Shown one piece after another: positions 27,164-62,670 of a stretch of DNA of 64,000 bases. The position numbers were made by a program, and so were the translations under genes. Within the stretch, counting starts at the first letter, position 1. Every line of letters begins with the position of its first letter. The DNA is taken from NCBI RefSeq assembly GCF_026870155.1, contig NZ_CP113975.1:3906001-3970000 (forward strand). The letters run 5' to 3'. Under the pieces are notes generated by a model. It ran no database searches. It was not told the origin of the DNA and saw nothing but the letters and a program-made list of their open reading frames with translations. The stretch is from Flavobacterium marginilacus. Lineage in GTDB: Bacteria; Bacteroidota; Bacteroidia; Flavobacteriales; Flavobacteriaceae.

Positions 27164-28672
27164 TTAATATTTGGTCACATTCGTTAAATTATCTGGAAAA
27201 TAGGAATCTGATAAATTGGTAAATTCATCACCTCTCATAAAAATATTGATATCGACTTCGCTAAAACTGTTTTTCCCGGCTGCTGCCAAAAGCTCGTTAG
27301 CAGCGTGAAGAGTGTTTTTATGAAAATGATACACTCTTTCAGATTTATCGGTTACGACTAATCCTTTCATCAGCATTTTATTCTGAGTGGCAACTCCTGT
27401 CGGGCATTCGTTATTATTGCAGCGCAAAGCTTGAATACAGCCCAAAGAAAACATAAAACCGCGGGCTGAATTACACATATCAGCCCCCAAAGCTACAGCT
27501 CTCAAAATGGAATATCCCGAAATGATTTTACCGCTGCAGATTACTGTTATCTTATCTCTTATTCCTAAACGGACCAATGTTTTGTTTACAAAAATAATTG
27601 CTGGTTCAAAAGGCATTCCAACACCGTCTGCAAATTCGAGCGGTGCGGCTCCAGTACCGCCTTCGGCACCATCGACAGTAATAAAATCAGGAAAGCAGTT
27701 TTGATGAATCATTTCCTGACATAGCGTTTCAAATTCAGAAGTTTCACCGATGCACAATTTAAAACCAATTGGTTTTCCATTAGATAATTGACGTAAATGA
27801 GCAATGAATTCTATCAGACCTTTTGCATCTGAAAAGGCATTATGGCTGGGTGGAGAAAGAATAGTCGTGTGTGGTTCAACCCCTCTTATTTTTGCAATCT
27901 GTGCTGTGTTTTTCTGCGCAGGAAGAACACCGCCGTGACCTGGTTTTGCTCCTTGTGATAATTTAATTTCAATCATTTTTACAGCAGGAAGATTCGCTTT
28001 TTCTGCAAATTTATCAGCATCAAAATTTCCTTCGGAATTACGGCAACCAAAATAACCAGTACCAATCTGCCAGGTAATATCCCCTCCATTTTGATGGAAC
28101 TCGGTCAATCCTCCTTCTCCCGTATTGTGATAAAAATTTCCTTTCTGTGCACCTTTGTTTAGTGCTACAATAGCATTTTCGCTTAATGAACCAAAACTCA
28201 TAGCCGAAATATTCAGTAATGAAGCAGAATACGGCTGTTTACAGTCTGAACCGCCAACGAGAACCCGCGGCAATTCATGATTGACAGATGCTGGAAACAT
28301 CGAATGCTTTATTCCTTCGTAACTCGATTGGTTTAAAACTAACTGCGTCCCAAAAGGAGAAGTTGCATCAATATTTTTAGCTCTTTGGTACACTAAAGAA
28401 CGCTGGTTTCTTGAAAACGGCTTACCGTCGGTGGTGCGTTCTATAAAGTACTGCTGAATTTCGGGAGCAATCATTTCAAACAAATATCTAAAATATCCCA
28501 ATATTGGGAAGTTTCTTAAAATAGCATGTTTTTGCTGAATGGTATTATAAAAGCCAACAATTATAAGGATTATCATTATAGCCGAAAAAACAAATCCTGT
28601 TTTTAGAAAATAATTAAAACCGAGAGAAATTAGTAATAATGTAATACTGATAATGAATAACTGTTTTCTCAT
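27164..28672 (-). CDS. FMN-binding glutamate synthase-family protein
   Basis: A 502-residue protein with an N-terminal membrane hairpin (about residues 5-42), then a glutamate-synthase-type FMN barrel. It has AMSFGSLSENAIVALNKGAQKGNFYHNTGEGGL, GCRNSEGNFD, KLSQGAKPGHGGVLP, ISPPSHNAF-like SPPSHNAFSDAKGL, TVDGAEGGTGAAPLEF and the Cys-containing NSARGFMFSLGCIQALRCNNNECPTG. The glutaminase domain of full GltB is absent. It belongs to the stand-alone family whose substrate is not settled. The conserved cysteines (GCIQALRCNNNECP) fit the 3Fe-4S region of GltS. It is single on its strand. Confidence 0.85.
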   Translation of the reverse strand: MRKQLFIISITLLLISLGFNYFLKTGFVFSAIMIILIIVGFYNTIQQKHAILRNFPILGYFRYLFEMIAPEIQQYFIERTTDGKPFSRNQRSLVYQRAKNIDATSPFGTQLVLNQSSYEGIKHSMFPASVNHELPRVLVGGSDCKQPYSASLLNISAMSFGSLSENAIVALNKGAQKGNFYHNTGEGGLTEFHQNGGDITWQIGTGYFGCRNSEGNFDADKFAEKANLPAVKMIEIKLSQGAKPGHGGVLPAQKNTAQIAKIRGVEPHTTILSPPSHNAFSDAKGLIEFIAHLRQLSNGKPIGFKLCIGETSEFETLCQEMIHQNCFPDFITVDGAEGGTGAAPLEFADGVGMPFEPAIIFVNKTLVRLGIRDKITVICSGKIISGYSILRAVALGADMCNSARGFMFSLGCIQALRCNNNECPTGVATQNKMLMKGLVVTDKSERVYHFHKNTLHAANELLAAAGKNSFSEVDINIFMRGDEFTNLSDSYFPDNLTNVTKY

Positions 28673-28859: not shown

Positions 28860-29717
28860 GAGCCTGTTTAAAAATTTAAAATAAATAATTGTTATGGGTT
28901 AAAGAAACCGATTGAAATTTGTCTTTTTGTAGTGACCAAACCATAAAAAGATGTATCCAACCGATTTGACAGAAACCCAGTGGCAATTTATAAAAAAGAT
29001 TTTAGGATTCGATGATAGAAAGCGGAAATATAATTTGAAAGTCATTTAGAATGCGATTAATTATCTCGTAAAAACAGGTTGTCAGTGGCGAATGTTACCT
29101 AAAGATTTTCCAAAATGGCAATTAGTGTATTATTACTATTGGAAATGGTCAAATTTGGAATGTTTTGATTTATTACTGTCAAAATTGCGAGAAAAAGTCA
29201 GGTTTAATAGAGGTCAAAATACAATGCCAAGTCTAGGAATAATGGATAGTCAAAGTGTACGATGGGGAAATAATCGTTCCTTAAATAGTTTTGATGGCAA
29301 TAAAAAAGTAAAAGGAATTAAACGGCATATTGTGGTTGATAAAAATGGGTTTCTTTTGGCAATAATGGTAACAGTTGCCAATGTCCATGATAGTAAAGCG
29401 GCAGATTTACTAATGAGGACGCTTCACTATTTTTTATGTCCTATAAAAGTAATCCTTGCCGATGGTGGTTACAGAGGCGAAGTGATTGAAAACATAAAAA
29501 ATAAATTTGGCTATATTATTCAAGTGGTAATGCGTTCAGATGATAGAAAAATGGGGTTTAAACCTATACATAAAAGATGGATTGTAGAGAGAACATTCTC
29601 TTGGTTTGACAACGACCGAAGATTATGTAGAAATTATGAACTACTTTTTGAAACATCCGAGAATATGGTCAAAATTGCAACTATAAAATTATTATTAAAT
29701 AAAATTTAAACAGGCTC
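28860..29717 (+). mobile_element. IS5-family insertion sequence, 858 bp, with TTA target duplication
   Basis: Perfect terminal inverted repeats GAGCCTGTTTAAA (28860-28872) and TTTAAACAGGCTC (29705-29717) bound the element. Both sides are flanked by TTA (28857-28859 and 29718-29720), as expected for a 3-bp TnA target duplication of the IS1031/IS5 type. The only gene is the interrupted transposase. It has landed between the FMN glutamate synthase-like gene and the DUF4198 gene, 46 bp upstream of the latter's ATG, so it has probably replaced that gene's native upstream region. Confidence 0.92.
28951..29709 (+). pseudogene. IS5-family DDE transposase broken by an amber codon
   Basis: The frame opens MYPTDLTETQWQFIKKIL at 28951 and would give 252 residues, but codon 33 is TAG (29047-29049). 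Family members have Trp there (I-W-N-A-I-N-Y-L), so a single G-to-A change TGG to TAG explains it. The frame continues intact afterwards with TGCQWRMLPKDFPKW, the first catalytic Asp in IMDSQSVRWG, the second in ILADGGYRGE and the Glu in VERTFSWFDNDRR. The rest of the sequence is undamaged, so the mutation looks recent. Translation from the internal ATG at 29092 would lack the N-terminal domain. Confidence 0.88.
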
Positions 29718-29763: not shown

Positions 29764-30480
29764 ATGAAAAAATTACTATCAAAAATAGCTCTGGGATTTG
29801 TTCTTTTATTAGTTCCAATGGCTCTAAATGCTCATAATATCTGGCTGGAAGTAAAAGGATCGGGCAAAATCAATGATAAAGTACAGGTGCAGTTATACTT
29901 TGGCGAATACGGTCAGGAAGCTCCAGAAAAAGGAGCGAAACCAGACCGTTTAAAAGACATCAAAATATTCCTGATTGATGCTTCCGGAACAAAATCAGAA
30001 ATTACAATGACACAGACAGAAACGCACTGGCAGGGTTCTTTTGATGCAAAAACCATTGGAACCTATCAGATAATTGGAATAAATGACCAAGGAGAAGTTA
30101 GAGATATGTCCAAAAAACATCTAGGTTTTGCAAGAAGCATCTCGTATCTAAAAGCTGTTTATACAGTAAAAACTCCTGAAACAAAAGAATATGCTGTTCA
30201 TCGATTAGATTTAACTGTACAAAAACAGAATGACACTTATTTGCTGACTGCATTTAAAGACAAAAAACAGCAGGGCAATCTGAATATTACAATTATCAAT
30301 CCGGATGGCTGGGTAAAAACAACAGAAACAAATGAAAAAGGTAAGGCATCTTTTGTTCCAAACAAAAAGGGGCTCTATCTCATCAATCTGGAATGGATCG
30401 ACAGCACCAAAGGAACTTTCAAGGATAAAGCATTTGATAATACTGTCAATAAAACTGTACTCTCGTTGAGAGTTGAATAA
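29764..30480 (+). CDS. DUF4198 periplasmic protein, probable metal-uptake/flavin-cluster component
   Basis: A 238-residue secreted protein with a signal peptide ending near residue 22 (LVPMALNAHNIWLEV). The mature start HNIWLEVKGSG and the YFGEYGQEAPEKGAKPDRLKD block are typical of DUF4198, a family of beta-sandwich domains often encoded with nickel/cobalt or iron transporters and with ApbE-linked DUF2271/PepSY genes. The histidine just after the signal peptide is a possible metal ligand. It is the first gene of the iron/flavin region, separated from the next gene by a repeat and a terminator. The IS element lies 46 bp upstream. Confidence 0.8.
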   Translation: MKKLLSKIALGFVLLLVPMALNAHNIWLEVKGSGKINDKVQVQLYFGEYGQEAPEKGAKPDRLKDIKIFLIDASGTKSEITMTQTETHWQGSFDAKTIGTYQIIGINDQGEVRDMSKKHLGFARSISYLKAVYTVKTPETKEYAVHRLDLTVQKQNDTYLLTAFKDKKQQGNLNITIINPDGWVKTTETNEKGKASFVPNKKGLYLINLEWIDSTKGTFKDKAFDNTVNKTVLSLRVE

Positions 30481-30527
30481 ACCACTATGGCGTCAGACTT
30501 AAAATATACTACGCTAAACCCTATTTA

Positions 30528-30591
30528 TTTGCCACAAATTTCACAAATTAGCACTAATTAATTTGTGAAAATTTGTGCAATTTGTGGCAAA
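30528..30591. repeat. Near-perfect 64-nt inverted repeat with CACAAATT units
   Basis: The left arm starts TTTGCCACAAATTTCACAAA (30528) and the right arm ends GCAATTTGTGGCAAA (30591), with only a few mismatches. It is the shortest of the CAC-n-AATT inverted repeats here. It lies 48 nt after the DUF4198 stop and could fold into a long hairpin in that transcript. The gene-free stretch 30481-30964 also holds the terminator at 30677, the promoter at 30850 and the operator dyad at 30888. Confidence 0.75.
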
Positions 30592-30676
30592 ATTTTTAGG
30601 AACCGAAAGATAAATACACTAAAGAACATAGTTTTGAACTAAATTTGAGACTAATAAATCTAAAAACTGTACAAAA

Positions 30677-30720
30677 AACAAAGATTCGGAATCTCATCTG
30701 AATCTTTGTTTTTTTTTGCA
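30677..30720 (+). terminator. Terminator downstream of DUF4198
   Basis: Stem AACAAAGATTC (30677-30687) with GAATCTTTGTT (30700-30710), extended by three further pairs including one G-T, then a long T-run. It lies about 200 nt after the DUF4198 stop. Confidence 0.88.
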
Positions 30721-30849
30721 ACAAATAGAAAAAACAGCTTAATCATAAATTTGAAAATAAATAAAATTTTTAACACAATTTGTTTAAACCTTTCACTGTT
30801 TTTTTAATCTAAAAAAGTGCATTTTAAGCCATATTTAAGAGTATAATAA

Positions 30850-30879
30850 TTGGTATTACACTATTTATTTTTACATTTG
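30850..30879 (+). promoter_or_regulatory. Promoter of the ankyrin-DUF2271-PepSY operon
   Basis: TTG (30850-30852), 19 nt spacer, then TACATTTG (30872-30879). This matches the Bacteroidota TTG-N17-23-TAnnTTTG pattern well, with a transcription start expected near 30886 and an 80-nt leader. Confidence 0.75.
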
Positions 30880-30887
30880 CACTATTT

Positions 30888-30904
30888 TTATTTATTCTAA
30901 ATAA
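30888..30904 (+). promoter_or_regulatory. Perfect 7-3-7 dyad, candidate iron-repressor operator
   Basis: TTATTTATTCTAAATAA is a perfect 7-bp inverted repeat around TTC. It covers the expected start of transcription, 9 nt after the -7 box. A close relative lies at the TonB-receptor promoter (36892). A Fur- or DtxR/MntR-type repressor is possible, but this is inferred from place and symmetry only. Confidence 0.55.
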
Positions 30905-30964
30905 TACCCGATTTAAGTACGAAATAAAGAATCAAACGTAACTACCCTATAACAACAAACAATT

Positions 30965-32485
30965 ATGAAAAAAAATATTTTCATTGCTTTTGCCTTAGTA
31001 TCTGCATTATTCGTTAGTGCACAGCAGAAAAATATGCTTTTAGAGCAGTCTTTCTGGAAAACATCACCAGATTTAGCGACAGTTCAAGCTGAAATCGCAA
31101 AAGGTAGCAGCCCATCTGAATTAAATTCAAGGTCTTTCGACCCAGTAGTTCTCGCTATAAATAATGATGCACCAAACGCTACTATAAAATTCCTACTGGA
31201 ACAGCCTGGAAATGAAGTTACAAAAACAACTCACGACAACAGAATATATCTGCATTGGGCTGCAGCTAAAGGAAATCTTGAAATCATAGAATATTTGATT
31301 GCTAAGAAATCTGATGTGAATCTGGAAGACAGCCACAGTTCGTTTCCTATCACGGCAGCTGCAAGCAGCGGTGTAACTAATACTGCAGTTTATGAAGCTT
31401 TTTTTAAAGCGGGTGTAGAACCTATGAAAAAATACCAGGACGGTGCAAACCTGCTGCTGCTGGCAATTCCTTATGACAAAGACCTTGCACTTTCAGCTTA
31501 TTTCGCAACCAAGGGAATGTCACTCAAAGATGTAGACAGTAACGGCAATACCGCCTTCAATTATGTAGCCAGAACAGGTAATATTCCTTTCTTAAAAACA
31601 CTATTGGAAAAAGGAGTAAAACCTACAGACAATGCACTGATTTTTGCTGCTCAAGGTTCCAGAAGAGAAACAAATACAATCGAAGTTTACAAATATTTAG
31701 TAGAAGATTTAAAAATCAATCCTAGTGCGACAAGTAAATTTGGGGAAAATGTATTTCATTTTCTTGTCAGCAAACCAAAACAAGCAGATATCATTAACTA
31801 CTTTTTGGGCAAAGGCGTAAGTATTGCCAAAGCCGATAACGAAGGTAACACTCCTTTGATGGTAGCTGCTGCGGCAAGAGAAACTTCTGCAGCATTGGAA
31901 CAAATACTGCTGATTGTAAAAACAATAAATTTCCAGAACGGAAATGGAGAATCTGCATTGACAATGGCTATAAAATCAGGAACTCCTGAAACTGTTACTA
32001 TGCTTTTAGACAAAGGTGCCGATGTAAAAGTACTAGACAAACAAGGAAATGGTCTGGGTTATTACCTAATTCAATCGTACAGAGCTCCAATGCAGGGAAT
32101 GGGTGGCCGTCCGGAAGGCGGGAACGCGCCAAAACAAGATCCTTTTGCGGCTAAAGCAAAACTGCTTCAGGACAAAGGCTTAAACTTGGCCGCAGCTCAA
32201 AATGACGGAAATACGCTTTATCATTTGGCAGTAGCCAAAAATGATTTAGCTTTATTGAAAAAATTAGCCGATTTAAACATCGACATCAATGCTAAAAACA
32301 AAGACGGATTAACGGCTTTACACCGTGCCGCGATGATTGCCAAAGACGATACCATTTTGAAATACCTGCTTTCTATTGGTGCCAAAAAAGATATCAAAAC
32401 TGATTTTAAAGAAAGTGTTTTGGACTTGGCAAAAGAAAATGAAACACTGACAAAAAACAAAACAGATTTAACTTTTTTAAAATAG
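30965..32485 (+). CDS. Secreted ankyrin-repeat protein of the flavin/iron cluster
   Basis: A 506-residue protein with a signal peptide (MKKNIFIAFALVSALFVSAQ), so the ankyrin repeats are periplasmic. About a dozen ankyrin-like units can be seen, for example HWAAAKGNLEIIEYLIAKKSDVN, GNTPLMVAAAA, GESALTMAIKSGTPETVTMLLDKGADV and DGLTALHRAAMIAKDDTILKYLLSIGA. A Gly/Pro linker (MQGMGGRPEGGNAPKQDP) splits the last repeats. Ankyrin folds bind other proteins, so it may scaffold the periplasmic redox partners; this is inferred from its place as first gene of the operon. It lies 109 bp upstream of DUF2271. Confidence 0.85.
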   Translation: MKKNIFIAFALVSALFVSAQQKNMLLEQSFWKTSPDLATVQAEIAKGSSPSELNSRSFDPVVLAINNDAPNATIKFLLEQPGNEVTKTTHDNRIYLHWAAAKGNLEIIEYLIAKKSDVNLEDSHSSFPITAAASSGVTNTAVYEAFFKAGVEPMKKYQDGANLLLLAIPYDKDLALSAYFATKGMSLKDVDSNGNTAFNYVARTGNIPFLKTLLEKGVKPTDNALIFAAQGSRRETNTIEVYKYLVEDLKINPSATSKFGENVFHFLVSKPKQADIINYFLGKGVSIAKADNEGNTPLMVAAAARETSAALEQILLIVKTINFQNGNGESALTMAIKSGTPETVTMLLDKGADVKVLDKQGNGLGYYLIQSYRAPMQGMGGRPEGGNAPKQDPFAAKAKLLQDKGLNLAAAQNDGNTLYHLAVAKNDLALLKKLADLNIDINAKNKDGLTALHRAAMIAKDDTILKYLLSIGAKKDIKTDFKESVLDLAKENETLTKNKTDLTFLK

Positions 32486-32510
32486 CAGTAAGCTTTAGGT
32501 CTTAAGCTAA

Positions 32511-32590
32511 ATTCATAATTCATAATTCATAATTCATAATTCATAATTCATAATTCATAATTCATAATTCATAATTCATAATTCATAATT
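32511..32590. repeat. Heptamer microsatellite ATTCATA, 11.4 perfect copies
   Basis: Eighty bases consist of eleven uninterrupted copies of ATTCATA plus ATT. The tract starts 25 nt after the ankyrin stop codon and ends 4 nt before the DUF2271 ATG. It is non-coding, but fills the whole translation-initiation region of DUF2271. Perfect repeats of this length tend to gain or lose units by slippage, so it may vary between cells. Confidence 0.95.
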
Positions 32591-32594
32591 AAAT

Positions 32595-33077
32595 ATGAAA
32601 TCAATATTCAAAATAGCTCTTGCGGGAGCATTCATCTTCCTTTTATCTTTCCAAGCCACAGCGCAGACGAGCAAATACAAATGCATGCTTCAAATGTCTA
32701 ACTATACAGGTGAAGGGGCTTATATAGTGGTATCTCTTATCAATGCCAAAGGTGAATACGACAAAACGCTTTATGTAATGGGTGATGATAAAAAATGGTA
32801 CAAAACCCTAAAGGAATGGCATAAATTTTATTCACAAAAACCTACTGATATTAGTGCAAAAACCGGTGCTTCAGTTACAGGCGGCGACCGCAGCATGACA
32901 ACACTGGAAATTGAAGATTCTAAAATCAATAAAGGATACAAACTTCGTTTCGAAACAGCGGTCGAAGATCAAAAATATTATGTAACCGATCTTGAAGTTC
33001 CTTTGACTACCGAAGGAATCGCTGATAAAACCGAAGGCAAAGGATATATCCGCTATGTAAGATTGAATAAATTATAA
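32595..33077 (+). CDS. DUF2271 periplasmic protein with ApbE-type flavinylation motif
   Basis: A 160-residue protein with a signal peptide (IALAGAFIFLLSFQATAQ). The mature part has YKCMLQMSNYTGEGAYIVVSLINAKGEYDKTLYVMGDDKKWYKTLKEWHKFY, typical of DUF2271, and then the short motif TGASVT at residues 90-95. That motif matches the [S/T]GA[S/T]x[S/T] pattern at which ApbE attaches FMN through a phosphoester; by analogy with NqrC, Ser93 would be the acceptor. With the PepSY reductase and ApbE genes beside it, the protein is best read as a periplasmic FMN carrier. Its start codon directly follows the heptamer tract, and a 20-bp hairpin follows its stop. Confidence 0.85.
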   Translation: MKSIFKIALAGAFIFLLSFQATAQTSKYKCMLQMSNYTGEGAYIVVSLINAKGEYDKTLYVMGDDKKWYKTLKEWHKFYSQKPTDISAKTGASVTGGDRSMTTLEIEDSKINKGYKLRFETAVEDQKYYVTDLEVPLTTEGIADKTEGKGYIRYVRLNKL

Positions 33078-33089
33078 TTTTTATCTGCG

Positions 33090-33140
33090 AAAATCTGCAA
33101 AATCTGCGTGCTCTTTTTTTACGCAGATTTTGCAGATTTT
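33090..33140. repeat. Perfect 20-bp hairpin between DUF2271 and PepSY genes
   Basis: AAAATCTGCAAAATCTGCGT (33090-33109) pairs perfectly with ACGCAGATTTTGCAGATTTT (33121-33140) across an 11-nt, T-rich loop. A third ATCTGC lies just upstream. It starts 12 nt after the DUF2271 stop and ends 31 nt before the PepSY ATG. A TTTTT run at 33137-33141 follows the stem, so it may act as a partial terminator or mRNA stabiliser. Confidence 0.85.
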
Positions 33141-33171
33141 TAAACAAAATCCCAATAACACAATTACATCA

Positions 33172-35361
33172 ATGACTCTTTCTTTCTGGCGTTACTCCCA
33201 CTTGGCCTTGGCGGTGTTTTCTTCGTTGTTTTTACTATTAGCATCCGTAACCGGAACCATACTCGCGGTTGATGCCATTCAGGAAAAAACAGTTTCTTAC
33301 CGAGCCGAAAATTTTGATACAATAACGCTCGGCGAAACCTTACCGATACTCAAAAAAAACTATCCTGAAATAACCGAAGTAACAGTTGACCACAACCAAT
33401 TTGTAACTTTAGAAGGGCTAGATCAAAAAGACAATGATGTCAACGCTTACATCGATCCGCGGACAGGAAAAATATTAGGAGAACCCATCAAGAAAAGCGA
33501 ATTTATTCAATGGATTACAGGACTTCACCGTTCACTGTTTCTTCACGAAACGGGGCGATTTTTCGTAGGATTTATTTCTTTTATCTTAGTTTTAATTTCA
33601 ATTTCGGGTTTTATTCTTATCCTTAAAAGACAAAGAGGTATCCGCAACTTTTTTTCCAAAATCATAAAAGACTATTTTGCTCAATATTATCACGTTGTTT
33701 TAGGCCGATTGGCACTGATTCCGATACTGATAATAGCAGTTACCGGAACTTATCTGACATTGGAAAAATTCAATTTTTTCATTCCAAAAACAGATTCGAA
33801 AGAACAGCAGGAAACCGTAAAACCTACACCAATTACCGATAAAGCCTCGATATTTAAGAGTACACTTTTAGCCGATGTTGAAAAAATAGAATTCCCTTTT
33901 TCAGACGATCCCGAAGAATATTACATTATCACCCTAAAAGACCGAGAGATTGAAGTCAACCAAGTTACAGGTGCCGTTGTAAGCGAAAAACTTTTCCCTG
34001 TAACAACTCTCTTGTCAAATCTCAGTCTTGACCTGCATACCGGCAGAACCAATGCCATTTGGGCTTTCATCCTTGGACTTGCCAGTTTAAACATATTGTT
34101 TTTTATCTATTCCGGTTTTGCAATGACTTTCAAAAGAAGAGCAAGCCGAATCAAAAACAAATTCAAAGCCGAAGAAAGTAAATACATTCTGCTCGTCGGT
34201 TCCGAAAACGGAAGCTCCCTACGATTTGCCAATGCAATCCTGAAGCAGTTAACTGATAGCGGAGAAAAAGCACATATTGCAGAGCTTAATAATTACACTA
34301 TTTACCCAAAAGCCGAGCATTTATTAATTTTCACATCAACCTATGGCTTGGGCGATGCCCCGTCAAATGCTGACAAGTTCGAATCACTTTTGAATAAATA
34401 CAATCAACAGCAAAAAATTAACTATACCGTAATTGGTTTTGGCTCCAAATCATATCCGGATTTTTGCGGTTACGCGAAACAAATTGACCTATTGCTTGTA
34501 AATCAGGAATGGGCGCACCGATTTATTGATCTGCAGACAGTAAACGACAAATCAGCCGAAGAATTTGTCGAATGGGTAAAACAATGGAATCACAAAACTG
34601 GTTTCCAATTGGCAACTACTCCATCTTTGTACAATCATATTCCGAACGATTTAGAGAAATTAATGGTGTTAGAAAAAACTACAGTTTCAGAAAATGAACA
34701 AACCTTTTTACTGACATTGCGTGCTGGAACGCGAAGCAGATTTACCTCGGGAGACTTATTGGCGATTTATCCCACCAATGACAATAGAGAACGTCTCTAC
34801 TCTATAGGAAACAGTAACGGAAACATCCAATTGGCGGTAAAATTACACCCTTCCGGTTTGGGTTCCGGATTTTTATACAACGCAAAAGCCGGCGATATCA
34901 TCAAAGCCAGAATAATTCCTAACCATGCTTTTCATTTTCCTAAAAAAGCCAAAAAAGTGGCTCTTATTTCAAATGGAACTGGAATTGCTCCTTTCTTGGG
35001 AATGATTGAACAGAACAAGAAAAAAGTCGAAATCTACTTATATAGCGGTTTCCGCCAAAAAACCGAAATCACTTCCAGTTACGAAACATTTGCTTCCGAA
35101 ATGACTCAAAAACAGCAATTAAAGAACATCAACTTGGCATTTTCCCGTGAACAGGATCATCATTATGTAATGGATTTAATCAAGAGAGACGAAGAATTTT
35201 TTGCTGATTTATTGAATAGCGAAGGCACGATAATGATTTGCGGAGCACTAAAAATGCAGTTTGATGTCGAAAATATACTTGACGCAATTTGTCTGTCAAA
35301 AAATAACACAACTCTTTCCAGCTATATAAGCAAAGGTCAGATTTTGACAGATTGTTATTAA
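33172..35361 (+). CDS. PepSY membrane protein fused to flavodoxin and NADPH reductase domains
   Basis: A 729-residue electron-transfer protein. Residues 1-330 are a PepSY-TM module: four transmembrane helices (about 5-30, 125-150, 175-200, 300-325) around periplasmic PepSY repeats, with histidines in YSHLALA, TGLHRSLFLHETG and YYHVVLGR that could ligate haem. Residues about 340-480 are flavodoxin-like (LLVGSENGSSLRFANAIL, TSTYGLGDAPSNADKF). The rest is a ferredoxin-reductase-like FAD/NADPH part (RLYSIGNSNGN, ISNGTGIAPFLGMI, MICGALKMQFDV), as in sulfite reductase and cytochrome P450 reductase. It should move electrons from cytoplasmic NADPH across the inner membrane. I chose MTLSFWRYSHL because the earlier ATG at 33130 lies inside the hairpin. 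Confidence 0.88.
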   Translation: MTLSFWRYSHLALAVFSSLFLLLASVTGTILAVDAIQEKTVSYRAENFDTITLGETLPILKKNYPEITEVTVDHNQFVTLEGLDQKDNDVNAYIDPRTGKILGEPIKKSEFIQWITGLHRSLFLHETGRFFVGFISFILVLISISGFILILKRQRGIRNFFSKIIKDYFAQYYHVVLGRLALIPILIIAVTGTYLTLEKFNFFIPKTDSKEQQETVKPTPITDKASIFKSTLLADVEKIEFPFSDDPEEYYIITLKDREIEVNQVTGAVVSEKLFPVTTLLSNLSLDLHTGRTNAIWAFILGLASLNILFFIYSGFAMTFKRRASRIKNKFKAEESKYILLVGSENGSSLRFANAILKQLTDSGEKAHIAELNNYTIYPKAEHLLIFTSTYGLGDAPSNADKFESLLNKYNQQQKINYTVIGFGSKSYPDFCGYAKQIDLLLVNQEWAHRFIDLQTVNDKSAEEFVEWVKQWNHKTGFQLATTPSLYNHIPNDLEKLMVLEKTTVSENEQTFLLTLRAGTRSRFTSGDLLAIYPTNDNRERLYSIGNSNGNIQLAVKLHPSGLGSGFLYNAKAGDIIKARIIPNHAFHFPKKAKKVALISNGTGIAPFLGMIEQNKKKVEIYLYSGFRQKTEITSSYETFASEMTQKQQLKNINLAFSREQDHHYVMDLIKRDEEFFADLLNSEGTIMICGALKMQFDVENILDAICLSKNNTTLSSYISKGQILTDCY

Positions 35362-35400
35362 TTTTTGGAGCAGAAAGATAGGGCATTTTTAGAAACATGG

Positions 35401-35475
35401 GTCCCGCTCTTCGTTTCAATCTTGTGGGCTGAACCCCAGCCCACAAGGATTTCCACTTCGATCGGGGCTAAAGAC
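35401..35475 (+). repeat. Composite dispersed repeat, copy A: hairpin module
   Basis: TCCCGCT-TTCG-TTCAAT leads into the stem CTTGTGGGCT (35421-35430), loop GAACCCC, and AGCCCACAAG (35438-35447), then a tail with ATCGGGGCTAAA (35461-35472). Two more copies at 50.3 and 62.6 kb keep the ends and loop but have different, still paired, stems. The palindrome of this copy lies at 35519. Together they fill the gene-free stretch 35362-35682; the last 130 bp before ApbE are plain AT-rich DNA. Confidence 0.85.
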
Positions 35476-35518
35476 AGGCATTTTTGCTTTTTTGGAATTA
35501 ATTGTTATTCAGTATTCG

Positions 35519-35551
35519 AGACCTAACAGGTTTTAAAAACCTGTTAGGTCT
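35519..35551. repeat. Composite dispersed repeat, copy A: 33-nt palindrome
   Basis: AGACCTAACAGGTTTT, one central A, then its exact reverse complement. The same palindrome follows the hairpin module of copies B and C. Confidence 0.92.
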
Positions 35552-35682
35552 AAAATTAGGGGTTCGAAAGAATTGAAAACTTTATTTGACTCATTTTTAC
35601 ACAATATTGTCATGAATGACAAAGTTTAAGGAAAGAAATACTGAAACAGAGCAATCGAATCAAAGCAGAATACAAAATCATT

Positions 35683-36684
35683 ATGAAAAGAAAATACTTT
35701 ACAGCACTATTATCACTGTTTTTTCTAATCCAGACCGTCAACAGCCAAGTCCTCCGCAAGAGAGCCACAATGCTTATGGGCGGGCGTTTTGACATTACAA
35801 TTGTTGCCAAAGATTCATTAACAGCAGAGCAAAGTATTGATGAAGTTATCACCGAAATTTCGAGGATCGAATACCTAATCTCCGACTGGAAACCCAGCAC
35901 TCAAATATCCGAAGTAAACAGAAATGCCGGAATTCAGCCTGTAAAAGTCGATAAAGAAGTTTTTGAACTGACGAAAAGAGCCATTCATTTCTCAGAAATA
36001 ACCAATGGCGGTTTTGATATCAGCTTCGCTGCTATGGACAGAATCTGGAAATTCGACGGATCCATGACCGAAATGCCTTCGGCGGAAGTCATTAAAAAAT
36101 CGGTCGAAAAAGTAGGTTATAAAAACATTATTCTGGACAGTATAAACTCAACCATTTTCCTAAAATTAAAAGGGATGAAAATTGGTTTCGGAGCACTCGG
36201 TGAAGGTTATGCCACCAATAAATGCAAGGAAATGATGCTCGCCAAAGGAATCAAGGCAGGAATTGTAAACGGCACCGGCGATATGAGCACATGGGGAAAA
36301 CAGCCTAACGGAAAACCTTGGAAAATAGGCATTACCAATCCTTTTCATCCGGATGACTTATTAGGTGCTATTCCGCTGACACAAGGTGCGGTTACGACTT
36401 CTGGATCCTACGAAAAATTTGTTGTTTTTAACGGCAAACGCTATTCCCACATCATAAATCCGTCAACTGGTTATCCAGTAACCGGTCTCTGCAGTGTTAC
36501 CGTTGCAGGTCCAAATGCCGAAACCGCCAATGGATTGAGTACTTCCCTTATGATTTTAGGACAAAAGGAAGGTTTACTTTTGCTCAACAAATTCCCCGAT
36601 TACAGCTGTCTGATGATTACTGATGAAGGGAAAGTAGTGAAATCAAAAAACTTCCAAATTAAAAAAATCAAATCTAAACTTTAG
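35683..36684 (+). CDS. apbE: ApbE FAD:protein FMN transferase
   Basis: A 333-residue periplasmic enzyme with a signal peptide (MKRKYFTALLSLFFLIQTVNSQ). It transfers FMN from FAD to Ser/Thr of target proteins with Mg2+. Family motifs: RATMLMGGRFDITIVAKD, ISRIEYLISDWKPSTQISEVN, GFGALGEGYATNKCKEMM, GIVNGTGDMSTWGKQPNGKPWKIGITNP, QGAVTTSGSYEKF and YSHIINPSTGYPV, with the metal-binding Asp/Thr residues in the last blocks. The obvious substrate is the DUF2271 protein two genes upstream. It is separated from the PepSY gene by 321 bp carrying a composite repeat, so it may have its own promoter, which I could not place. Confidence 0.93.
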   Translation: MKRKYFTALLSLFFLIQTVNSQVLRKRATMLMGGRFDITIVAKDSLTAEQSIDEVITEISRIEYLISDWKPSTQISEVNRNAGIQPVKVDKEVFELTKRAIHFSEITNGGFDISFAAMDRIWKFDGSMTEMPSAEVIKKSVEKVGYKNIILDSINSTIFLKLKGMKIGFGALGEGYATNKCKEMMLAKGIKAGIVNGTGDMSTWGKQPNGKPWKIGITNPFHPDDLLGAIPLTQGAVTTSGSYEKFVVFNGKRYSHIINPSTGYPVTGLCSVTVAGPNAETANGLSTSLMILGQKEGLLLLNKFPDYSCLMITDEGKVVKSKNFQIKKIKSKL

Positions 36685-36891
36685 TTTTCTTAAAAAACTA
36701 TCCTTTTTTATAAGCTCCATTCTAAATTTTCCAAAACGAAATAGATTAGCAAACAACGTTACGAAGCAATTCCTACAGCCTTAGAACAATATTTATTAGC
36801 AAATATTTCTTGTATTCATAATTTTTAGAGCAATAAAAAAATCTAAAATAATGATTCACAAATAGTTAAAAACTTATTAAAATATTATTAA

Positions 36892-36906
36892 TATTTAGTC
36901 TAAATA
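36892..36906 (+). promoter_or_regulatory. Perfect 7-1-7 dyad upstream of the TonB receptor, candidate operator
   Basis: TATTTAGTCTAAATA is a perfect inverted repeat around one T and ends 2 nt before the -33 box. It shares TTTAnTCTAAATAA with the dyad at the ankyrin promoter. The TTAG-n-CTAA core is like DtxR/MntR-type boxes and the 7-1-7 form like Fur boxes; the regulator is not known. Confidence 0.55.
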
Positions 36907-36908
36907 AG

Positions 36909-36939
36909 TTGTCACATCTAAATTTAGGTTTTATATTTG
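36909..36939 (+). promoter_or_regulatory. Promoter of the TonB-dependent receptor
   Basis: TTG (36909-36911), 20 nt, then TATATTTG (36932-36939), a full match to the Bacteroidota pattern. The start of transcription should lie near 36946, 27 nt before the ATG. Confidence 0.8.
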
Positions 36940-36972
36940 CATTGTTATTTTTAATTATTCCAAATAAACAAC

Positions 36973-39336
36973 ATGAAATATATTTTCCTCCCCCTAACGC
37001 TCTTAGCATTCTGCCTAAACAGTCAAGCCCAAGACGTTGCAAGTAATTCAAACAGCACAAAAGATAACAGCCTTTACTATTTTGCTTCCGACAGTATAAA
37101 ATCAGTTAATGATACAGTAAAGAAAAAAGGCCAGCAATTAAAAGAAGTTATAGTAACTGGAAATAAACAGCCAAAACCAGTAACCGCTTTACGTTCTGGA
37201 TTAAAACCAATGGATGTACCACAAAGTGTACAAATAATTGATGCTGAAATTATCGAACAGCAGCAGGCTATCCGCTTGAGTGATGTTATCAAAAATGCAA
37301 ATGGAGTATATGTAGGATCTGCCCGAGGCGGTGCCAATGAATCATTATGGTCCAGAGGATACTCAATGGATGCTAACAATATGTTTAAAAACGGGTTCCG
37401 CTATAATGGAGGTTCGATTCCAGATGTAGCTTCTTTGGAAAGAGTAGAATTTCTTAAAGGTGGTTCTGCCTTACTTTTTGGAAATGTTACTCCTGGAGGA
37501 ATACTAAACTTGGTTACCAAAACGCCTAAATTTACCGAAGGAGGTCAATTAAGCATGCAAATGGGAAGCTATGCTTTTTATAAGCCATCTATTGATTTTT
37601 ATGGACCAATAAACAAATCTATAGCTTATAGATTTAATGCCTCTTACGAAAATTCAGAAAGTTTTAGAGATTTTGTAAAAAACGATCGTATTTATCTTAA
37701 CCCATCTTTATTGTTCAAAATTTCAGATAAAACTCAAATTACAGCACAGGGAGATTATTTAAGTGCTGATTGGACTCCTGATTTTGGAACTGGAATTGTA
37801 GATAAACAGATATTAGATATTCCAAAAAATGTTTATTATGGCGCACTTTGGTCAACAGGAAACACAAAATCATCAAGTGCTTCAGTATTTGTAAATCATG
37901 ATTTTAATGACAACTGGAAATTAGGTTTCAACACGTCATATCAATCCTACCGCAGAACACAAAAATCTACAGCACAATTATCTAATTTAGCTTATTCAGA
38001 TATTGATAATGATAACGTTCAAGAAGTGAATTGGAAGCGTGGTTTAACACAAGCAGATGCTGCCGAAAAAATATATGGTAATCAACTGAGTCTGCAGGGA
38101 ACTTTCAATACAGGAAAAATCAAACATCAAATATTTACAGGAGCTGATTATGAATATTCTTCTGCTCCAAGTTATACTTTTGTATTTTACGACGACAAAA
38201 ATATCACCCAGACTACCGAAACTAAGGCCATAAATCTTTTCAATTACGATTACAGCAAAGAAAGTTTAAATGCACCATACGCTACCAGAGCAACCCAGCT
38301 AGCTACTACAGATACACAACGTTTTGGAGCATTTGCTCAGGATTTAATTTCGATTAATAAATATATCAAAGTCTTAGCAGGACTACGCTGGTCTTGGCAA
38401 GAAGCAGAAGTTACAACTACCAAAGAGGTACTGACACCATCAGCAGATAAAAAATCTAACACTATAACTACTCCTTTAGAAGATGCAATCCCTACAACAG
38501 CTGACAAAGTATTAAATAAAGCATTTTCTCCAAAAGCAGGATTAGTAATTCAGCCAAACAAAGATTTATCATTATTTGCTAGTTACTCTAACTCATTTTC
38601 TCCAAATACAGGAACTAATGTTAATTTACAGCCTTTAGATCCATCTATCATAGACCAATACGAAGCTGGTATAAAAACAGATTTCTGGAAAGGCCTTTTG
38701 AGTACAAATGTAACCGTATACCAAATTGAGAACAACAACTTGGCTCAAACCGCCCAATTCCAAGCTGACGGAATTACCGAAAACGTAAACACCAATTTAA
38801 AAGAATTAGTAGGTGCTACAAAAGGAAAAGGAGTTGAAATTGACATTACTGCCAGACCCATTGAAGGTTTAAATATTAATGCTGGATATAGCTTTAATGA
38901 AACTAAAGTATCAAAATCTTCAGGAACAAGTGGCAGCCTTGTTGTGGGAGACGTTCTTGCAAGAACACCAAAGCACACTGCGAACTTAAGTTTTTTCTAT
39001 AAATTACCTAGCGGTGTATTAAAAGGATTATCTTTTGGAGCTATCGGGAACTATATTGGAGACAGAACGGGTGGGTGGAATGATGACTATCAATGGGCAC
39101 TCAACACAAATACTCCTAATCCAAATGACTATACTGTAACAATCAGAGATCGTGATATTCCATTAGAGGGTTATACAACAGTGGATGTTTCTGCAGGATA
39201 TGATTGGAAAAAATTCTCCATCCTTTGTAAATTATCTAATATTACTGATGAATTGAATTATACAGTACACGAAAACTACAGTGTGAACCCAATTGCTCCA
39301 CGTCAAGTAATGGTAAGTTTAAAATACAAATTATAA
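36973..39336 (+). CDS. TonB-dependent siderophore receptor (FhuA/FoxA-like)
   Basis: A 787-residue outer-membrane receptor with a signal peptide (MKYIFLPLTLLAFCLNSQAQ). A TonB-box-like LKEVIVTG leads into the plug (PMDVPQSVQIIDAEIIEQQQAIRLSDVIKNANGVY through LERVEFLKGGSALLFGNVTPGGILNLVTK). A 22-strand barrel follows, ending with the usual aromatic/hydrophobic C-terminus (QVMVSLKYKL). The PQSVQIID and GGILNLVTK motifs are typical of ferric hydroxamate-type receptors. It lacks the N-terminal carboxypeptidase-like domain of SusC proteins. It probably takes up a siderophore made by others, since no siderophore synthesis genes are nearby. The own promoter and dyad suggest iron control. Confidence 0.92.
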   Translation: MKYIFLPLTLLAFCLNSQAQDVASNSNSTKDNSLYYFASDSIKSVNDTVKKKGQQLKEVIVTGNKQPKPVTALRSGLKPMDVPQSVQIIDAEIIEQQQAIRLSDVIKNANGVYVGSARGGANESLWSRGYSMDANNMFKNGFRYNGGSIPDVASLERVEFLKGGSALLFGNVTPGGILNLVTKTPKFTEGGQLSMQMGSYAFYKPSIDFYGPINKSIAYRFNASYENSESFRDFVKNDRIYLNPSLLFKISDKTQITAQGDYLSADWTPDFGTGIVDKQILDIPKNVYYGALWSTGNTKSSSASVFVNHDFNDNWKLGFNTSYQSYRRTQKSTAQLSNLAYSDIDNDNVQEVNWKRGLTQADAAEKIYGNQLSLQGTFNTGKIKHQIFTGADYEYSSAPSYTFVFYDDKNITQTTETKAINLFNYDYSKESLNAPYATRATQLATTDTQRFGAFAQDLISINKYIKVLAGLRWSWQEAEVTTTKEVLTPSADKKSNTITTPLEDAIPTTADKVLNKAFSPKAGLVIQPNKDLSLFASYSNSFSPNTGTNVNLQPLDPSIIDQYEAGIKTDFWKGLLSTNVTVYQIENNNLAQTAQFQADGITENVNTNLKELVGATKGKGVEIDITARPIEGLNINAGYSFNETKVSKSSGTSGSLVVGDVLARTPKHTANLSFFYKLPSGVLKGLSFGAIGNYIGDRTGGWNDDYQWALNTNTPNPNDYTVTIRDRDIPLEGYTTVDVSAGYDWKKFSILCKLSNITDELNYTVHENYSVNPIAPRQVMVSLKYKL

Positions 39337-50299: not shown

Positions 50300-50385
50300 A
50301 ATGTTGTTCTTTAGCCCCGATTGCAGTGAAAATACTTGTATGCCGGGGTTCGGCATACAAGATTGTAACGAAAAGCGGGAGAAAT
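50300..50385 (-). repeat. Composite dispersed repeat, copy B: hairpin module
   Basis: On the minus strand it reads CTCCCGCTTTTCGTTACAAT, stem CTTGTATGCC (revcomp of 50352-50361), loop GAACCCC, GGCATACAAG (50335-50344), then ATCGGGGCTAAA. The palindrome at 50217 follows in the same orientation, as in copies A and C. The gene-free stretch 49959-50539 holds the terminator, the element at 50060, both parts of copy B and about 150 bp of AT-rich DNA before folE, where TATCTTTA at 50493 may be a weak -7 box. Confidence 0.85.
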
Positions 50386-50539
50386 GTTGTTATAAAATGC
50401 CAAATGTTCTGCTCCTAAAAACAATAATAAATACCTATTTATTGATAGAATTAAAAGCCGAAATTGATAGAAAATGTTTCCTTTTTATTAATTATCTTTA
50501 CCCCTCAAAAATAGACAATCATAATAACAGTACCTTTTA

Positions 50540-62370: not shown

Positions 62371-62592
62371 CTAACAACAAATATAAGAAACCATAAAGGA
62401 TTTAATGGTTAAAATCACATATTAAGTTGTTAAGTTATTAACAAAAAGACGAAAATATCTGTTTAAATTCCAGTATCAACAAAAAAACCAGATTCAATTA
62501 CAAAAATCAAACCCAAAATGCAATTTCTGCCCAACAGCCTAAGTCTGATTATTCTTTTTTGAAGCAGAACATTGTACTTTCTTACAAGAATC

Positions 62593-62670
62593 CTCCCGCT
62601 ATTCACTTCAATCTTGTGGACTAAACCCCAGTCCACAAGGATTTTCGTTTCTATCGGGGCTAAAAATCAA
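62593..62670 (+). repeat. Composite dispersed repeat, copy C: hairpin module
   Basis: TCCCGCTATTCACTTCAAT precedes the stem CTTGTGGACT (62613-62622), loop AAACCCC, and AGTCCACAAG (62630-62639), then ATCGGGGCTAAA (62653-62664). It lies between gyrB and aspS. The rest of the gene-free stretch 62341-62810 holds the palindrome, the aspS terminator and AT-rich DNA that should contain the gyrB promoter, which I could not place. Confidence 0.85.

Follow-up and report, generated by a model that had tools for sequence, protein, structure and literature searches.

A published PepSY/DUF2271/ApbE system with an apparently undescribed ankyrin partner in Flavobacterium marginilacus and related Bacteroidota

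Introduction

Gene clusters that combine PepSY proteins, DUF2271, ApbE and DUF4198 are in print, as are the flavinylation of DUF2271 and a hypothesis that connects such systems with iron (PMC8238504, PMC11334425, PMC12004947, PMC7190382). In the present work, we examine a locus of this kind in a stretch of 64,000 nucleotides (the window) from Flavobacterium marginilacus (GCF_026870155.1, contig NZ_CP113975.1, positions 3,906,001 to 3,970,000), in which DUF2271 and a PepSY reductase are preceded by a secreted ankyrin-repeat protein. We will argue that these three genes probably form a periplasmic iron-reductase module that is served by ApbE, with the ankyrin protein as its dedicated partner.

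The PepSY-like flavinylation system described by Meheust et al. (2021, PMC8238504) has the same PepSY, DUF2271 and ApbE parts, and in our locus, too, PepSY_TM is clustered with ApbE. Some of the PepSY proteins of that system have an NAD-binding domain, and the system is linked to TonB receptors and to iron. It differs in that the paper does not use the word ankyrin in its main text, nor do the other three papers cited above in theirs, and in that DUF4198 is not conserved in the lineage of the window.

FoxB of Pseudomonas (PDB: 7abw) has two haem sites with two histidines each (PMC11334425). The window protein shares its PepSY_TM core and four aligned histidines, but the 7abw chain has 382 amino acids (aa), whereas the window protein is a fusion that also contains flavodoxin and NADPH-reductase domains. 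The same flavodoxin and FAD/NADPH halves are found in NADPH-cytochrome P450 reductase and in the reductase part of nitric oxide synthase, the difference being the fusion to a PepSY membrane domain. In XusABC of Bacteroides (PMC13142918), a TonB receptor is combined with a PepSY inner-membrane protein that is proposed to reduce ferric siderophores. Seven of the family loci discussed below similarly encode, upstream of the trio, a receptor together with a DUF4374-like protein, whereas no DUF4374 match was found among the window genes scanned around it. The haemophore and receptor families of the RhuH/RhuR/RhuA system of Riemerella (PMC11967795), finally, are found next to the trio in 26 of the 39 family loci, while in the window genome the haemophore locus is separate from it.

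Among the papers listed in searches of the open-licence literature, supplementary tables excepted, we have found no description of an ankyrin protein paired with a DUF2271/PepSY system. The nearest is a Riemerella expression table that lists an ankyrin gene without comment (PMC5429918). The locus is thus the published PepSY/DUF2271/ApbE system with an apparently undescribed ankyrin partner.

Results and Discussion

The open-reading-frame list of the window contains six frames between positions 29764 and 39336, all on the plus strand. Five of them enter the main argument:

30965–32485, plus strand: 506-aa secreted protein with ankyrin repeats, encoded by the first gene of the conserved trio (Pfam ankyrin repeats, 134.8 bits)
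32595–33077, plus strand: DUF2271, predicted FMN carrier, with TGAS at residues 90–93 (Pfam, 130.6 bits)
33172–35361, plus strand: fusion of PepSY_TM, flavodoxin and FAD/NADPH reductase, 729 aa (Pfam and NCBIfam domains)
35683–36684, plus strand: ApbE, FAD:protein FMN transferase, 333 aa (Pfam, 262.7 bits)
36973–39336, plus strand: TonB-dependent siderophore receptor, 787 aa (TIGR01783, 245.3 bits, cut-off 223.5)

The ATG at 33172 is the more likely start of the PepSY protein, over the TTG at 33130 given in the list, and residues are numbered from it (M1). Signal-peptide-like N-termini can be recognized by eye on five of the six proteins, the PepSY protein excepted. An earlier note on this DNA had described six co-directional genes with these domains and signal peptides on all but the PepSY fusion, and this description holds, with DUF4198 just below its Pfam cut-off. 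The note had also placed the ankyrin gene first in the operon; it is first in the conserved trio, but second in the gene list of the note itself.

Three sets of loci were compared. The family sample comprises 120 genomes, with DUF2271 in 45 of them (44 over the cut-off) at 47 places (46 over the cut-off), and the surroundings of all 46 places other than the window's own were considered. The phylum sample comprises 296 genomes, at least four of which are common to both samples. The named loci come from a GTDB scan with the ankyrin profile, which gave at least 594 pattern matches; we used the best 80 of the 508 related stretches among the matches listed. These are the closest relatives, with Flavobacterium overweighted and all titles placed in Bacteroidota.

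In the family sample, an ankyrin orthologue is found directly upstream of DUF2271 on the same strand at 39 of the 46 places outside the window and, with the window included, at 40 of the 46 places over the cut-off. The reverse search, for the ankyrin protein in the 120 genomes, yields 43 rows corresponding to 42 genes in 40 genomes, and 40 of these genes adjoin DUF2271. In the phylum sample, ankyrin orthologues (at least 270 bits) are present in 20 of the 22 genomes with DUF2271 over the cut-off and in none of the 274 others (Fisher p 4e-29, kinship ignored). The adjacency is visible in 19 of the 20; in the remaining genome, G370, one gene lies at the end of one contig and the other at the end of another. 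The two phylum genomes with DUF2271 and no ankyrin (L109 and L111) have ApbE–DUF2271 fusions, with Pfam confirmation for L111 only. A generic-ankyrin artefact was ruled out, since the other ankyrin matches in the phylum sample reach at most 52.1 bits.

In the named loci, DUF2271 follows the ankyrin gene within 349 bp in 79 of 80 cases, the contig ending there in the remaining one (79 of 79 testable), and PepSY then follows in 76 of 77 testable cases. ApbE lies in the flank of 68 of the 80 loci; in eight, it is followed by a receptor that shares 60% identity or more with that of the window. Judged by gene order, the conserved core is the trio of ankyrin, DUF2271 and PepSY/flavodoxin/NADPH reductase. 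F. pectinovorum DSM 6368 (locus L195) is one of the species in which the trio is present. That the ankyrin gene stays with DUF2271, which the earlier note had proposed as a check, is strongly borne out, with exceptions.

It is important to point out what these exceptions are, as they weigh against our reading. Ankyrin is missing at six of the 46 over-cut-off family places. Two of these (L041 and L068) have no PepSY neighbour either, two (L076 and L077) have shorter PepSY proteins of 473 and 487 aa, and one (L073) has, by coordinates, an ApbE–DUF2271 fusion. At the sixth, L057, DUF2271 and a full-length PepSY protein are present and only the ankyrin is missing, which means that it is not strictly needed. 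The sole below-cut-off place, L078, has neither an ankyrin nor a PepSY gene. Of the two ankyrin genes that do not adjoin DUF2271, that of G015 is at a contig end, while that of G079, a fragmentary genome (81% complete), has no DUF2271 within about 7–8 kb on either side. In the 39 family loci outside the window that have the ankyrin, no ApbE gene was found close by. Finally, the ankyrin protein has no cysteine and no invariant histidine, with three histidines at least 90% conserved; a protein-binding adaptor is for this reason likelier than a metal site.

The loci sampled outside Bacteroidota are from plasmid records. Only one of 97 plasmid records with DUF2271 has the ankyrin, a Spirosoma plasmid with the same gene order. 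In the three proteobacterial records that were read (Marinobacter, Cupriavidus and Hoeflea), no ankyrin is annotated near the DUF2271/PepSY locus; DUF2271 is preceded by a small PepSY-domain or hypothetical gene and followed by a gene for a putative PepSY protein, 736–739 aa by gene length. Because another small gene fills the slot there, the ankyrin may be a lineage-specific replacement. Among the genomes and plasmid records sampled, the ankyrin partner is seen only in Bacteroidota.

We now turn our attention to the possible electron path. The PepSY protein consists of a PepSY_TM core, a flavodoxin domain and FAD/NADPH halves like those of cytochrome P450 reductase. The membrane part, searched as a profile, matches FoxB 7abw with E 6.7e-17, and His10, His119, His174 and His289, which align with FoxB histidines, are candidate haem ligands. 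Across 28 sequences, three of these histidines are invariant and the remaining one is at least 90% conserved, one row ending before that residue. Eight PepSY_TM matches are present in the window genome (5.32 Mb, 2 contigs), and the frame of the trio is the longest, with 764 aa compared to 370–537 for the others. In two further clusters of this genome (G000:C1, about 2.13–2.17 Mb and 3.776–3.786 Mb), PepSY_TM proteins occur together with TonB receptors and with the iron-type operator discussed below.

The DUF2271 domain is flavinylated by ApbE elsewhere, as described for the published PepSY-like clusters (PMC8238504). The motif for this, [ST]GA[ST], is found in 54 of 61 DUF2271 proteins; five read GET and two GPT, and the acceptor Ser/Thr is kept in all. 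Loss of flavinylation in a sub-clade was considered and ruled out, as the acceptor Thr remains in the GET and GPT proteins and the five GET genomes have ApbE. Four of the five GET-type proteins (L058, L070, L071 and L074, not L068) have ankyrin and PepSY neighbours. A PDB profile search with DUF2271 gave nothing useful.

From these features we infer the following path. The NADPH/FAD/FMN domains of the PepSY protein, located in the cytoplasm, would donate electrons, which would cross through two b-haems in the membrane part and reach an FMN that ApbE would attach covalently to the periplasmic DUF2271. Reduced DUF2271 would pass them on to ferric complexes imported by TonB receptors, and Fe2+ would then enter via FeoB, for which the window genome has one strong candidate (175.9 bits, 703-aa frame). 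The outer-membrane partner would be interchangeable, a siderophore receptor here and haem or Xus-like receptors elsewhere. The earlier note had already proposed an NADPH reductase with haem in the PepSY membrane part and FMN on DUF2271; the reductase domains on the PepSY_TM core, the four aligned histidines and the TGAS motif agree with both proposals.

AlphaFold2 predicts the ankyrin protein with confidence as a solenoid (pLDDT 91.8), the best PDB fold matches of which are other ankyrin-repeat proteins. The protein is 95% identical to that of the F. aquicola locus and 98% identical to that of a genome of the same species. It is most likely a dedicated partner, a periplasmic adaptor that would dock DUF2271 near the PepSY protein or the ferric substrate. 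Based on the domain fusion, the motifs, the aligned histidines, the co-conservation and the shared operator discussed below, we thus consider it reasonably probable that the trio is an iron-reductase module with this ankyrin as its own subunit.

The next question concerns the substrate. In 26 of the 39 family loci with an ankyrin (the window not counted), a DUF6607 gene lies upstream of the trio, and in 25 of these it is the immediate neighbour of the ankyrin gene; 24 of the 26 have an HmuR-like receptor and 15 have HmuY. RhuH, a haemophore of solved structure (8xjc; PMC11967795), belongs to the DUF6607 family, with a profile match of E 1.8e-110 and 53% identity in the fold match. Another receptor type, related to the MxcH model (the representative is below the curated cut-off), is found in eight of the 39 loci, and seven of these also have a DUF4374-like protein upstream of the trio (representative 17.8 bits, cut-off 25). 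The remaining five have neither DUF6607 nor the MxcH-type receptor. Because the gene of a RhuH-type haemophore is next to the trio in 26 of the 39 loci, haem may be a substrate in addition to ferric siderophores.

One could go further and regard the system as a haem-iron system at root, in which FMN on DUF2271 reduces haem or drives iron release in the periplasm, the ankyrin handles haem, and siderophore use is secondary. Besides the haem genes just described, there is the Campylobacter ankyrin protein Cj1386, which reportedly handles haem. However, 16 of the 48 DUF6607-bearing family genomes have no ankyrin, which rules out the haemophore as an obligate partner, and the Flavobacterium loci and those labelled f3 and f4 keep the trio without these haem genes. 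In the window genome, DUF6607 is at 1.03 Mb, far from the trio, where the haemophore and receptor genes are divergent with an exact operator match between them. The ankyrin, in addition, lacks any invariant histidine or cysteine. We therefore regard this scenario as rather unlikely.

The trio would be either a general reductase that is plugged into different uptake systems or a haem module that is also used for siderophores. A bolder version of the adaptor reading is that a near-obligate, Bacteroidota-specific ankyrin subunit docks flavinylated DUF2271 to any ferric cargo, haem included; the haemophore-linked Flavobacteriaceae would then reductively free haem iron outside the cytoplasm. We give this version only a small chance.

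Another option considered was that the ankyrin takes no part in electron delivery but protects or matures the reductase, by loading haem into PepSY or by guarding FMN against oxidative damage. There are precedents in bacteria, namely periplasmic ankyrins linked to catalase, and the ankyrin accompanies full-length PepSY proteins, with 723–743 aa in all 37 uncut cases among the ankyrin-bearing family loci, while it is missing at the two loci with shorter ones. The gene adjoining the ankyrin gene is, on the other hand, DUF2271 and not PepSY, and the full-length PepSY proteins of L057 and, by gene length, of the three proteobacterial loci manage without it. This role is in our view improbable.

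We next consider regulation. The Flavobacterium ankyrin promoters have in common a TAnnTTTG box, which we take to be the promoter consensus, and then TTATTTnnAnnnnnTCTAAATAA. At up to one mismatch, the operator occurs 28 times in the window genome, compared to 6 times for the reversed pattern. The nine sites that match exactly are next to HmuR/DUF6607, TonB receptors, a DUF4198 gene, AraC regulators and hemA. Those with one mismatch form a mixed set: they include the ankyrin gene, the receptor and a class-V aminotransferase read as sufS, and some are without an iron gene or without any gene in range. In the named loci, an operator with at most 4 of 18 mismatches is present within 250 bp upstream of the ankyrin gene in 74 of 79 cases, compared to 11 of 395 shuffled sequences, the motif being partly derived from the ankyrin promoters later scored with it. 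Of the AT-richest 250-bp segments taken from these loci, 94 of 395 pass the threshold, but the segments overlap and may include other operators. A sigma-70 promoter scan shows no excess (42 vs 37.1). The link to iron in the earlier note is strengthened in that the ankyrin and receptor promoters carry an operator common to haem-uptake and other iron genes.

We infer that the regulator is Fur, by analogy with Riemerella, because the RhuH/RhuR promoter has a Fur box, mutation of which raises expression (PMC11967795), and because Fur binds the promoter of the receptor gene B739_0173 (PMC7976709). The Fur box sequence in PMC7976709 differs from our motif. B739_0173 is followed by a hypothetical gene, an ankyrin, a 'predicted periplasmic protein' and a 'nitric oxide synthase' (PMC5429918, PMC7976709), a run that from its gene order and table labels would contain the orthologous trio. 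All five genes are up under iron chelation, with log2 values of 3.31, 3.64, 2.41 (ankyrin), 3.06 and 1.05 (PMC5429918), in a study that notes unequal cell densities. Near the haem locus of F. psychrophilum, transcripts that respond to iron and may function in electron transfer across the membrane are also described (PMC9331221), and these may be the trio.

The remaining features of the locus are the following:

28860–29717, plus strand: IS5-family element, transposase frame 29092–29709 (NCBIfam transpos_IS5_3, 142.7 bits; ends by eye)
29764–30480, plus strand: DUF4198 secreted protein, 238 aa (Pfam PF10670, 32.1 bits, cut-off 34)
30676–30717, plus strand: terminator-like hairpin with T-run and 12-nt loop, in the DUF4198–ankyrin gap (by eye)
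30872–30879, plus strand: TAnnTTTG promoter-like box (sequence pattern, presumed consensus)
30882–30904, plus strand: iron-type operator 5' of ankyrin (operator motif scan)
32510–32590, no strand: 7-mer AATTCAT repeat, 11.6 perfect copies, in the ankyrin–DUF2271 gap (repeat scan)
35396–35473, minus strand: Flavo-1 RNA, in the PepSY–ApbE gap (Rfam RF01705, 77.1 bits)
36885–36907 and 36945–36967, plus strand: two iron-type operators 5' of the receptor (operator motif scan)

These bear on the proposal of the earlier note that all six genes are one siderophore operon, with DUF4198 and the ankyrin as metal-binding and scaffold partners. The genes are indeed co-directional, DUF4198 is present in 1500 of 3220 published clusters (PMC8238504), and receptor, DUF4198 and ankyrin stand in a row in two near relatives. 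In the same-species locus L126, DUF4198 comes after a TonB receptor, and in the F. aquicola locus L127 it does so directly. However, the scan that finds one operator 5' of ankyrin and two 5' of the receptor finds none 5' of DUF4198 at up to 4 mismatches. Together with the 484-bp spacing between DUF4198 and ankyrin, the terminator-like hairpin in it and the IS5 junction, the separate operators indicate that the six genes are probably not one operon, and we rejected the six-gene unit as very unlikely. DUF4198 was likewise rejected as a core or constant partner, being found in only one of the 80 named loci, although divergent members could escape the search at E 1e-8.

The IS5-family element ends 46 bp before DUF4198, has terminal inverted repeats (by eye), and is present in seven near-identical full-length copies in the window genome. 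Its long transposase frame covers model positions 50–257 only, so the start is missing. The junction before DUF4198, at which the window lacks the upstream receptor block, is marked by this element and by a short repeat common with L126, and a block homologous to the upstream part of L126 is found at 3.780–3.786 Mb in the window genome, about 150 kb away. By parsimony, the window strain would be the rearranged one.

Some further observations can be added. The number of whole AATTCAT copies varies, with 11 in the window, 10 in L126 and 5 in L127, and the repeat is a possible spacing or expression switch. Flavo-1 RNAs occur three times in the window (35396–35473, minus; 50309–50386, plus; 62588–62665, minus), the first being antisense inside the gene cluster. 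Beside the cluster, at 27164–28672 on the minus strand, is a gene for a glutamate synthase-like protein of 502 aa (Pfam), in which a hydrophobic stretch can be seen by eye at the N-terminus.

That the ankyrin is a secreted host-directed effector, here by chance, is almost certainly wrong: its matches to Legionella (Dot/Icm) effector models reach at most 73.7 bits with cut-offs of 450–1400, and F. akiainvivens, three ankyrin proteins of which are listed among possible host mimics (PMC6801697), itself carries the trio (strain IK-1, L191), and in many genera the ankyrin goes together with DUF2271 and the reductase.

Conclusion

If the trio is an iron-reductase module with a dedicated ankyrin adaptor, a widespread system for iron reduction would gain a partner that has gone unrecognised. 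A function class would be obtained for a large family of ankyrin proteins secreted by bacteria (at least 594 pattern matches, with 508 related stretches among those listed), and some of these proteins may be mistaken for host-directed effectors. In Flavobacteriaceae, iron reduction would be tied to haem uptake, and periplasmic processing of haem iron would become testable.

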